The translations under genes were made by a program, and so were the position numbers. Below, piece after piece: positions 3,406-18,946 of a DNA stretch of 64,000 nt; the first letter of the stretch is position 1, and every line of letters starts with the position of its first letter. This stretch comes from Spirochaetales bacterium. GTDB lineage: Bacteria; Spirochaetota; Spirochaetia; Sphaerochaetales; Sphaerochaetaceae. Location of the stretch: positions 1 to 64,000 of the forward strand of contig JAGABZ010000007.1 in NCBI GenBank assembly GCA_017614375.1, read 5' to 3'. Below the pieces are notes generated by a model. It was not told the DNA's origin, did no database searches, and worked only from the letters and a program-made list of their open reading frames with translations.

Positions 3406-4002
3406 TTAGAACGAGACCTTTGCCGAGAGGGTGAATCCGCCCTCTCCTGAGCGTGTGACCAGCGGGAGGAATCCGACGGTCACCGAGCCCATCCCGAGCG
3501 CGTCGGAGAGCTTTGAATTGAATGAGCGGGCGTAGGTGTACGGCCGTATGCACTGCCAGATTCTGACAGCCACCAGACCGGCCAGACCGGCCACGGCCAG
3601 CTCTCCGCCGTGGCTTTCCCTGTCGTCGTGGTACAGTTCGTTATGGGCATTCGTGGCGGATTCGGAAATAAAGGCCGCGATAAGCAGGCTCGTGCTGACT
3701 ACGTCGCACCCTGCAAAGACGATGTGAAGCGGGTCCCCCTGGCTTTTGGAACCGGATCCGAAACCCAGAACGAGGTTCCACAGGAAACCTTCGGTCGCGG
3801 ACACCTGGTAACGGGTCCAGACGGAGTTCTTTTCCGAGTCGGTCAGCTGGCCGGACAGGGCCTTTATCTTTTCCGCATTCGCGTCGGAAAGCCGCCCGAA
3901 AGCCATAATCCTACTGACTTCCTTGTACGAGTCCGGGTCGGCGTAGAGCATCGAGCATGAAACAAGCAAAACTGCCAGAATAATGAAGACCTTCCGGGTC
4001 AT
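3406..4002 (-). CDS. P13-like envelope protein
   Basis: A 198-residue exported protein with an N-terminal signal peptide; cleavage is likely after LYA, although LVSC at residue 16 could also be read as a lipobox. Two or three hydrophobic segments follow (around FAGCDVVSTSLLIAAF and LAVAGLAGLVAV), and the chain ends in a phenylalanine after alternating residues (LSAKVSF). The layout, with the GS-x-x-QGD motif before the first membrane segment, resembles the spirochaetal P13 family known from Borrelia as a channel-forming envelope protein. The match is from memory of the family pattern and is moderate. I use the ATG at 4002 because GGAGG lies 8 nt upstream; the ATG at 4008 would be only 2 nt from it. 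Confidence 0.55.
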   Translation of the reverse strand: MTRKVFIILAVLLVSCSMLYADPDSYKEVSRIMAFGRLSDANAEKIKALSGQLTDSEKNSVWTRYQVSATEGFLWNLVLGFGSGSKSQGDPLHIVFAGCDVVSTSLLIAAFISESATNAHNELYHDDRESHGGELAVAGLAGLVAVRIWQCIRPYTYARSFNSKLSDALGMGSVTVGFLPLVTRSGEGGFTLSAKVSF

Positions 4003-4158
4003 GGTCATGTCCTCCGTTGCGTAAACAATGATAGCACACTTTCATGGGGATTGTACCGGGCAAAAAGCGCTGCGATGATGTCTGTCACGGGTAAATATTA
4101 TCTATATTCGTGTTCCCTGGAATAGGCGGAATACCCAGGCTGCCACCCGCCATAAGCC

Positions 4159-4188
4159 TTTACAACTATGCCACTACAATGGTATAGT
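4159..4188 (+). promoter_or_regulatory. Promoter of the DUF3990/HTH module
   Basis: TTTACA (4159-4164) and TATAGT (4183-4188), 18 bp apart, each match the sigma70 consensus at five of six bases. The -10 element ends 9 nt before the ATG at 4198, leaving essentially no untranslated leader. Confidence 0.6.
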
Positions 4189-4197
4189 TCAGATGAT

Positions 4198-4890
4198 ATG
4201 AATAGTCCGGATGTCATTACAATCTTCCATGGTTCCGAAGAAATAATCCGAAAGCCCCTGTACGGTATCGGAAACCCCAGAAACGACTACGGTAGGGGGT
4301 TCTACGGCACCCTTGTCCTTGATCTGGCAAAGGAATGGGCCTGTACCGAAACCCACGGAGGATACGCGAACAAATACAACCTGGACCTCGGCGGGTTGCA
4401 CATCCTGAACCTTTCCGACGGGCAATACAACATCCTCCATTGGCTGTCGCTTCTGCTGAAAAACCGAATCTTTGATACAAGGAATGCGGTTTCCGAGGCC
4501 GGCAGGCAGTACCTCATTGAGCATTTCGACATCGACACTTCCAACTTTGACATCATCCGCGGATACAGGGCCGATGACTCGTACTTTTCCTTTGCCCAGG
4601 CTTTTCTGGACAACACAATTACAGTCCGCAAACTCGCCGAGGCCATGCATCTGGGCAAACTGGGTGAACAGATAGTACTGGTCTCCCCTAATGCCTTTGC
4701 ACAGATTGAGTTCATCGGCTTCGAACCTGCTGAGCGGGACATCTTCTACCCGCTGCGAAAAAGCCGCGATGAGTTTGCCCGGAGCCGGTTCTTCAGCCTC
4801 CGCGATGCGCCGGGACTGAAACCGGACGATCTTTTCCTGGCCGACATAATCAGAGGAGGAATCACAGCCGATGATCCACGCCTACAGTGA
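4198..4890 (+). CDS. DUF3990 family protein, predicted ADP-ribosyltransferase-like toxin
   Basis: A 230-residue protein that I recognise as DUF3990. It has the HGS motif near residue 11, the NDYGRGFYGT segment, LAKEWACTE, YNILHWL, IIGYRADDSYF-like residues (here IRGYRADDSYFSFA) and LGKLGEQIVL. DUF3990 is considered related to ADP-ribosyltransferase folds and is usually found beside small HTH or DUF3791 genes in putative toxin-antitoxin modules. The next gene overlaps it by 20 bp and encodes the matching HTH partner. The start at 4198 is preferred because the family begins just before the HGS motif; an ATG at 4168 lies inside the promoter. No Shine-Dalgarno is present. Toxin function is inferred from family and neighbour. 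Confidence 0.75.
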   Translation: MNSPDVITIFHGSEEIIRKPLYGIGNPRNDYGRGFYGTLVLDLAKEWACTETHGGYANKYNLDLGGLHILNLSDGQYNILHWLSLLLKNRIFDTRNAVSEAGRQYLIEHFDIDTSNFDIIRGYRADDSYFSFAQAFLDNTITVRKLAEAMHLGKLGEQIVLVSPNAFAQIEFIGFEPAERDIFYPLRKSRDEFARSRFFSLRDAPGLKPDDLFLADIIRGGITADDPRLQ

Positions 4891-5476
4891 GCTGTATCTG
4901 ACCGGTGCATGCCGGATTATGGCAGCGTTGTTCGATTCTGCTCTCGGGACTATGACACCTTCGGAGTTCACCGGCCTGTTTTTGGATTCAACTGTTGCCG
5001 TTTCCTGGGAAGCAGGGAATCCGAAGTACATCGCGGGGAAATCCGGAGAAGAAATCCTCGAGGAGATTACCGGCAGAAATCCGGTTGTGTCGGCGCAACC
5101 ACAGGACCGTTCAGCGGCGTACTGGTGCGGTCATGTCTATGCATATGCCCAGTGGTACTTCGGGTGCCGGTTCGCGGAACTGTTTTCCGCAATCCCCATT
5201 GAGGAGCTTCTGTCACTGTACACTCCCCTGCATGAGGCTGACATCTCAAAAACCATGGCTTTGTTCCGACGCCGGCTGTTCCCCCAACCTGCCCTCAAAA
5301 CCTGGCGGGAAAAACGCAATCTGAGCCAGTCCCAGCTGGCCAGAATCAGTTCCGTCAGCCTACGTTCAATCAAGGCATATGAACAGGGTGATCTGGATAT
5401 TTCAAAGGCCGGTTATGAAACCCTCTGGAATCTGTCGCGCAGCCTCTGCTGCGAGGTCAGGGAACTGATTTCCTAG
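4871..5476 (+). CDS. HTH (XRE-type) partner of DUF3990, predicted antitoxin
   Basis: A 201-residue protein with an N-terminal domain (about 1-135) typical of the partner of DUF3990: MIHAYSELYL, a region around GNPKYIAGKSG, and the aromatic YWCGHVYAYAQWYFG. A C-terminal helix-turn-helix of XRE type follows (about 145-200, LSQSQLARISSVSLRSIKAYEQG). The N-terminal part probably binds the toxin and the C-terminal part DNA, giving autoregulation, as in many type II modules. Its start overlaps the end of the preceding gene; GAGGAGG lies 11 nt upstream, a slightly long spacing that still suggests independent ribosome entry. That would favour antitoxin synthesis if the leaderless first gene is poorly translated. 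Confidence 0.75.
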   Translation: MIHAYSELYLTGACRIMAALFDSALGTMTPSEFTGLFLDSTVAVSWEAGNPKYIAGKSGEEILEEITGRNPVVSAQPQDRSAAYWCGHVYAYAQWYFGCRFAELFSAIPIEELLSLYTPLHEADISKTMALFRRRLFPQPALKTWREKRNLSQSQLARISSVSLRSIKAYEQGDLDISKAGYETLWNLSRSLCCEVRELIS

Positions 5477-5524
5477 GCAAGCTGTTCCTTAAAACCGCCC
5501 TTCCTCGTGTTTCATTCATAGGAA

Positions 5525-5686
5525 GTGACAAGGAAGTGACATTTTCGATGTCACCATGTCACCACCTGATAACTTCCGGTCTCACAAGAAATAACAATCC
5601 GACTATCAGAGATGGTGACAGAGGAGGTGACAAGGAGGTGACATTTTTACCCGACATGGTGACAAGGAGGTGACAAGGAGGTGACA
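5525..5686. repeat. Array of GTGACA / AAGGAGGTGA repeats
   Basis: The 309-bp gap after the HTH gene holds eight forward GTGACA hexamers (5525, 5536, 5615, 5627, 5638, 5659, 5670, 5681) and two reversed ones, TGTCAC (5549, 5557). Neighbouring forward copies sit 11 or 12 bp apart, one helical turn. The joined units contain AAGGAGGTGA at 5632-5641, 5664-5673 and 5675-5684, a perfect complement of the usual 16S rRNA 3' tail. No gene starts at a suitable distance behind most copies. The rest of the gap shows no other feature. Confidence 0.7.
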
Positions 5687-5785
5687 TTTCCTGTTCTCGT
5701 GAGTAAGAATGTTTGAGTTCCTCGCCCGGAAAGAGGAAGAGTTGCGTCGTGCGGGATAATCCTGCATAATCCTCCCGAGGCGTAT

Positions 5786-6106
5786 ATGAAAACAGAGACT
5801 TTGGATAGAATCCGCCGGTTCACCGAGGACCGCGACTGGGACCAGTTCCATACCCCGGCCAATCTGGCCAAATCAATCGCAATCGAGGCTGCCGAGCTGC
5901 TTGAGTGCTTTCAGTGGTCGGATGACCGATATGACCTGAATGCCGTCCGGGAGGAACTGGCAGACGTGATGGTTTACTGCGTCGATTTGCTGGACAAGCT
6001 GGGACTGGACGCCGATGAGATCATCAACGCAAAGATGGACAAGAACGAGGCCAAGTACCCCGTCGAGCGGGCCAGGGGCAACGCCACCAAGTACGATAAG
6101 TTCTAG
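5786..6106 (+). CDS. MazG-like nucleotide pyrophosphohydrolase
   Basis: A 106-residue all-alpha NTP pyrophosphohydrolase. It shows the magnesium-binding EAAELLECFQW motif (about 34-44) and the downstream EELADVMVY (E-x-x-D) motif, with the single-domain length typical of the dCTPase/RS21-C6-like group. Such enzymes hydrolyse (d)NTPs, often non-canonical ones, to monophosphate and pyrophosphate as house-cleaning. Start at 5786 with a GAGG-containing site about 8 nt upstream. It follows the repeat array and stands alone on its strand; whether the array controls it is unknown. Confidence 0.85.
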   Translation: MKTETLDRIRRFTEDRDWDQFHTPANLAKSIAIEAAELLECFQWSDDRYDLNAVREELADVMVYCVDLLDKLGLDADEIINAKMDKNEAKYPVERARGNATKYDKF

Positions 6107-18803: not shown

Positions 18804-18810
18804 TTCCGGT

Positions 18811-18906
18811 TTTATTGCTTCATTTATTGCTTCTTTTATTGATTCATTTATTGCTTCTTTTATTGATTCATTTATTGCTTCTTTTATTGATTCATTTATT
18901 GCTTCT
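18811..18906. repeat. Eight tandem 12-mers TTTATTG(C/A)TTC(A/T)
   Basis: Eight uninterrupted 12-bp units run from 18811 to 18906. From the second unit they alternate strictly between TTTATTGCTTCT and TTTATTGATTCA, giving a 24-bp higher-order unit. The tract fills most of the gap between the converging trmB and mfd genes and is AT-rich. On the minus strand it could encode repeats of EAINESIK within an open frame that continues into trmB antisense, but there is no sign that this is translated. Confidence 0.85.
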
Positions 18907-18946
18907 TTTGACACATTCAGCAGCTTGACTGACACAACAGGGGACA

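Follow-up and report, generated by a model that had tools for sequence, protein, structure and literature searches.

The replication origin of P4 is annotated in its sequence record with type-1 repeats, i.e. copies of GGTGAACA that lie 10-11 bp apart in direct orientation, plus one inverted copy. Recognition of this origin by the alpha protein is established (Ziegelin et al., 1993, cited in PMC8628076). Iterons are also known points of conflict, as lambda origin iterons cloned with oop can exclude phage (PMC3349717) and satellite iterons are needed for cutting by the ICP1 Odn nuclease (PMC8263062). Here we describe a chromosomal array of GTGACA repeats in the 64,000-nt stretch of spirochaete-like DNA that was analysed (the window). 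These repeats had drawn attention by their likeness to Shine-Dalgarno sequences; most likely they form a binding site for a phage-type protein, stranded in or borrowed by the chromosome, and not a ribosome-binding RNA.

Anatomy of the GTGACA array

The array consists of eight GTGACA hexamers (starting at 5525, 5536, 5615, 5627, 5638, 5659, 5670 and 5681 of the window) and two TGTCAC hexamers (5549 and 5557) within 162 bp (5525-5686). All ten are where a previous sequence-only reading had placed them, and the array is real; it starts slightly earlier than the 5525 given in that reading, since its first block begins at ∼5520. The start-to-start steps of the ten hexamers are 11, 13, 8, 58, 12, 11, 21, 11 and 11 bp. 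Four of these nine steps are exactly 11 bp, in agreement with the claim that many copies are so spaced, and steps inside blocks are mostly 11-13 bp, so that these short, nearly identical repeats are helically phased. The ten sites observed in 170 bp compare with a maximum of three when the window was simulated 300 times with a first-order Markov model. Likewise, allowing up to three mismatches to GGTGACAAGGAGGTGACA returned four matches, every one inside the array, where 0.02 were expected. The array is the sole one of its kind in the 1.54-Mb genome, which holds no further GTGACANNGNNGTGACA pair and only one single-mismatch site; a dispersed REP or MITE-type repeat, by comparison, is defined by multiple genomic copies.

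The hexamers fall into three blocks and an inverted pair. Block A (5520-5545, plus strand), AGGAAGTGACAAGGAAGTGACATTTT, comprises two direct copies 11 bp apart, with a unit also found in the G144 array described below. It is followed by the inverted pair ATGTCACCATGTCACCA (5548-5564), which reads GGTGACATGGTGACA on the minus strand, and by a 49-bp spacer (5564-5612) between this pair and block B. Block B (5609-5647, plus strand) has three direct copies, GAGATGGTGACAGAGGAGGTGACAAGGAGGTGACATTTT, and block C (5654-5689, plus strand) has three direct copies 11 bp apart, ACATGGTGACAAGGAGGTGACAAGGAGGTGACATTT. Blocks B and C open with ATGGTGACA, and ACATTT closes all three blocks. The spacer is only weakly A+T-rich (59% versus 42% for the window). 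In terms of orientation and gaps, the intergenic, mixed-orientation layout is >4>6<1<51>5>4>14>4>4>; forward and inverted copies surround a spacer, a trait shared with the P4 origin and the viral arrays considered below.

The sequence AAGGAGGTGA, of which at least three copies had been claimed, occurs exactly three times (5632, 5664 and 5675) and nowhere else in the window. No ATG stands at the usual distance after these three copies, which bears out the remark that most have no gene start behind them. The textbook 16S tail is TCACCTCCTT. AAGGAGGTGA is complementary to this textbook tail, the organism's own 16S 3′ end not being found in the assembly. The Shine-Dalgarno-like word is made up of the variable spacer and the start of the conserved hexamer. 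GTGACA itself never changes among the ten copies, unlike the spacers between them (AGGAA, GAGGAG, AGGAG and others), and only four copies have spacers with the AGGAGG that makes the Shine-Dalgarno match. That the hexamer is invariant while the Shine-Dalgarno-like spacer varies suggests that protein-DNA contacts, rather than rRNA pairing, have been kept.

Flanking genes and relatives of the array

The array sits in the 5477-5785 gap between a toxin-antitoxin-like gene pair and a MazG-like gene, flanks that had been recognized correctly from the letters alone. The first gene of the pair (4168-4890, plus strand) encodes a DUF3990 protein and the second (4871-5476, plus strand) an HTH protein (HTH_3); they are the PADLOC candidates PDC-M42A and PDC-M42B respectively. 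The next gene downstream of the array encodes the MazG-like pyrophosphohydrolase (5786-6106, plus strand), whose start at 5786 has its own GAGG ahead of it. G+C content is 50-58%, mostly 50-55%, over the first 6.1 kb and 59% in the arg operon, which is consistent with positions 1-6.1 kb being acquired, lower-GC DNA. On the minus strand, 1728-2981 encodes a protein without Pfam match that resembles the C-terminal part of PADLOC candidate PDC-S68; its position near the PDC-M42A/B-like pair makes a small defence cluster possible. A Borrelia P13-like membrane protein (3406-4008, minus strand) fits a spirochaete host. Elsewhere in the window, 18810-18909 holds 4.2 tandem copies of a 24-bp unit with 98% matches. 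The neighbours of the array (DUF3990, HTH, MazG and arg genes) include no replication gene, and thus no adjacent cognate primase-helicase or initiator gene. As the three primase-helicase families searched for, VapE-like, DUF5906 and DUF3987 (PF05272, PF19263 and PF13148), are absent from the whole genome, the array is an orphan with respect to these.

This gene context had made a regulatory role attractive: the adjacent HTH protein, or some other transcription factor, might control mazG or the DUF3990/HTH pair by binding to the phased GTGACA sites. The array does fill the space between genes ahead of the MazG-like gene, and a weak promoter-like pair (GTGACA at 5681, AAGAAT to 5710) overlaps its last copy. 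Moreover, in the phage contig that is the nearest viral sequence match among the matches listed (L237), an HTH gene is immediately preceded by an array almost identical to this one, which would fit an operator. Here, however, the array follows the HTH gene instead of preceding its operon, and no GTGACA cluster was present at the HTH homologues in 13 genomic loci, seven viral contigs and three phage or plasmid records. An antitoxin operator would be upstream of the operon and conserved with the DUF3990/HTH pair; this array is absent from all 23 homologous loci. The MazG loci of relatives likewise lack a GTGACA cluster, the gene order around the MazG-like gene has nothing in common with theirs, and argD was found in no other genome of the genus. 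Since homologues of both flanking genes occur without the array, it is no conserved part of either module, and the proposed role through the toxin-antitoxin or MazG genes is not supported. We consider an operator rather unlikely.

The array is not conserved in close relatives. A DNA search of 100 relatives gave chance coding matches only, the L007 match falls in apparently coding sequence, and plasmid and phage collections gave no blastn match to the intergenic region. Among the matches listed from 393 genomes of the phylum, the sole close parallel is at G144:C74:33117-33155 (L401/L433). This array, GATGGTGACAAGGAAGTGACAAGGAAGTGACAGGGAAGTGACATTTT, has the form GATGGTGACA(AGGAAGTGACA)nTTTT with spacers AGGAA and GGGAA. 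Its unit is that of block A in the window array and its ends are those of blocks B and C, and it is likewise an intergenic orphan; unlike the window array, it has four direct copies, lacks the inverted pair and has unrelated neighbouring genes. None of the ten neighbours tested is a recognized replication gene. Within 8 kb are a DUF2520 gene, a ThiF gene, a Schlafen-AlbA gene and a TaqI-type (restriction-type) methylase gene.

A functionless neutral repeat, produced by slippage and duplication of the 11-bp unit, would be in keeping with the resemblance of blocks B and C to duplicates, and the sequence-only reading had said that the lack of both a transcript and conservation in close relatives would point that way. 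The locus indeed shows no such conservation, yet slippage alone would not give inverted copies, nor an invariant hexamer with variable spacers, and a second genome (G144) with the same unit and block ends is not what it would lead one to expect. We therefore regard a neutral origin as unlikely.

Other repeats were noted as well. Two genomes of one genus in the class of the window genome (G328 and G357) have a perfect 12-bp tandem, (GTGACATTTTCA)n (L402 and L404). Several genomes of Prevotella and relatives share a conserved intergenic element of ∼100 bp, GGTGACAgGGTGACA...GGTGACAagGGTGACAggagGGTGACA (L040, L063, L074, L122 and L138). In Chloroflexi and others, tandem GGTGACA followed by inverted copies forms hairpin-like intergenic repeats (L039, L136 and L145), apparently a separate class.

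The GTGACA word at phage replication genes

Viral contigs were scanned for three close copies of GGTGACA, which yielded at least 120 loci; the figures that follow are for a sample. Raw counts of such triplets were not taken as evidence by themselves, because collagen-like coding sequence accounts for many of them and the reversed control gave ∼100 matches too. Array classes could be told apart only by orientation and neighbouring genes. Among the matches listed, 73 arrays were in a single orientation (mostly coding repeats) and 47 were in mixed orientation. A primase-helicase gene lay within 1.5 kb of 24 of these 47, mostly within 250 bp, but of 0/73 single-orientation arrays and 1/101 control arrays. 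As the primase-helicase profile had been trained on neighbours from clustering of the same GGTGACA loci, independent support comes from Pfam: eight of ten neighbours tested had VapE-like, D5_N, DUF5906, Prim-Pol or DUF3987 domains. In the viral arrays, clusters with two or three copies each oppose one another across 25-140 bp. For example, L172, L217, L223 and L225 resemble the window array in the hexamer, both orientations and a spacer of tens of bp; they differ in having a primase-helicase gene within ∼250 bp, where the window array has none. In bacterial genomes, a primase was near only one of 22 mixed-orientation arrays among the matches listed, which indicates that GTGACA arrays with other functions exist. 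Several of the bacterial arrays, mostly from Anaerolineae, look like intergenic hairpins.

Triplets of GTGACA phased at 11 bp were found in 20 viral contigs, compared with five for the reversed control, among the matches listed. Many of these arrays sit within a gene. Ten array genes or neighbours, nine from the phased-triplet contigs plus L432, were searched against PHROGs, and seven were assigned to replication initiation, O-like, replisome organizer or DnaD-like loader proteins; Pfam Phage_rep_org_N was present in one of those tested. L446 lies beside a VapE-type gene and L447 beside a DnaB-like gene. The O-like/DnaD-like in-gene arrays (such as L435, L444, L445 and L450) share the hexamer and the 11-bp period with the window array, but are inside an initiator gene, whereas the window array is intergenic without one around it. 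The lambda origin, inside gene O, is in principle comparable to these in-gene arrays. The Shine-Dalgarno-like spacer varies in phage arrays too, most of which lack the Shine-Dalgarno part. Since reversed-motif controls also land in array-like contexts, GTGACA is a common iteron word but not the universal one.

Collectively, GTGACA recurs, in many viral contigs, at two unrelated kinds of phage replication genes, encoding O-like/DnaD-like initiators and P4-like primase-helicases (e.g. L444, L445, L450, L225, L217 and L172). No paper describing this recurrence was found in literature searches for the repeat and for P4-type origins, with most subscription journals outside their coverage. A word common to several replication types may matter more than the window array itself and merits its own study.

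An orphan array compared with known origins

The sequence-only reading had offered either iteron-like protein-binding DNA or a ribosome-binding RNA, and the first half of this pair is the better supported: phage replication genes have the hexamer with the phasing and the arrangement in both directions seen here, and the P4 origin as annotated is similar. On balance, we lean towards an iteron array of the phage- or satellite-origin type, captured or left over as an orphan in the lower-GC segment, which also contains candidate anti-phage genes. This rests on the motif, layout, phasing and uniqueness observed here, and on the recurrence of the word and its layouts at phage initiator and primase-helicase genes. 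Counting against it are the missing replication gene, the weak A+T richness of the spacer, the rarity of primases near mixed-orientation arrays of bacterial genomes and the position of the L237 array before an HTH gene. The array would act as double-stranded DNA arranged for protein binding, as where temperate phages and P4-like satellites start replication, with GTGACA clusters of either orientation flanking a short spacer that is richer in A+T. The copies in a cluster, about one helical turn apart, would present the same helix face to what we infer to be an initiator-type protein. Any present-day binding would then be by an initiator acting in trans from an infecting phage or satellite.

The orphans in the window and in G144 could be vestiges of origins, origins used in trans by an element, or decoys. 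In the last case, a phage-origin mimic beside candidate defence genes might titrate or sense the initiator of an infecting phage through its iterons, and the G144 array, too, has a Schlafen-AlbA gene and a restriction-type methylase gene in its vicinity; we think this quite improbable. A MITE or insertion-sequence end in which transposase sites are repeated would match the direct and inverted copies within a segment of differing GC, but is very improbable given a single-copy array, the lack of a transposase among the flanking genes (for which two reasons an insertion-sequence end was dropped) and no DNA match to the array in the plasmid and phage collections. That an RNA of the array uses its repeated anti-anti-Shine-Dalgarno sequences to bind ribosomes or free 30S subunits is highly improbable: three exact 10-mers, AAGGAGGTGA, do match the textbook 16S tail as complements and folding of the plus-strand RNA is stronger than for shuffled sequences (z -2.85), but in the predicted fold the repeats are paired to the inverted copies instead of being free, the Shine-Dalgarno part is the spacer, which varies in the array, in G144 and in phages and is missing from most copies, from G144 and from most phage arrays while GTGACA is conserved, and the region has no Rfam family and no strong promoter or terminator. 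Ribosome binding by the array is probably incidental.

With the orphan iteron array as the preferred reading, an odd Shine-Dalgarno-like repeat leads to a class that can be tested, namely phage-type origin arrays that lie as orphans in the chromosomes of bacteria. The window array differs from the P4 origin in its word, GGTGACA instead of GGTGAACA, and in its setting, as P4 has the alpha primase-helicase and the window genome is without PF05272, PF19263 and PF13148 proteins. Both, however, have a short word of the GGTGA-CA type, copies 10-11 bp apart, inversion of part of the set (one inverted copy in P4) and clusters set apart by tens of bp.
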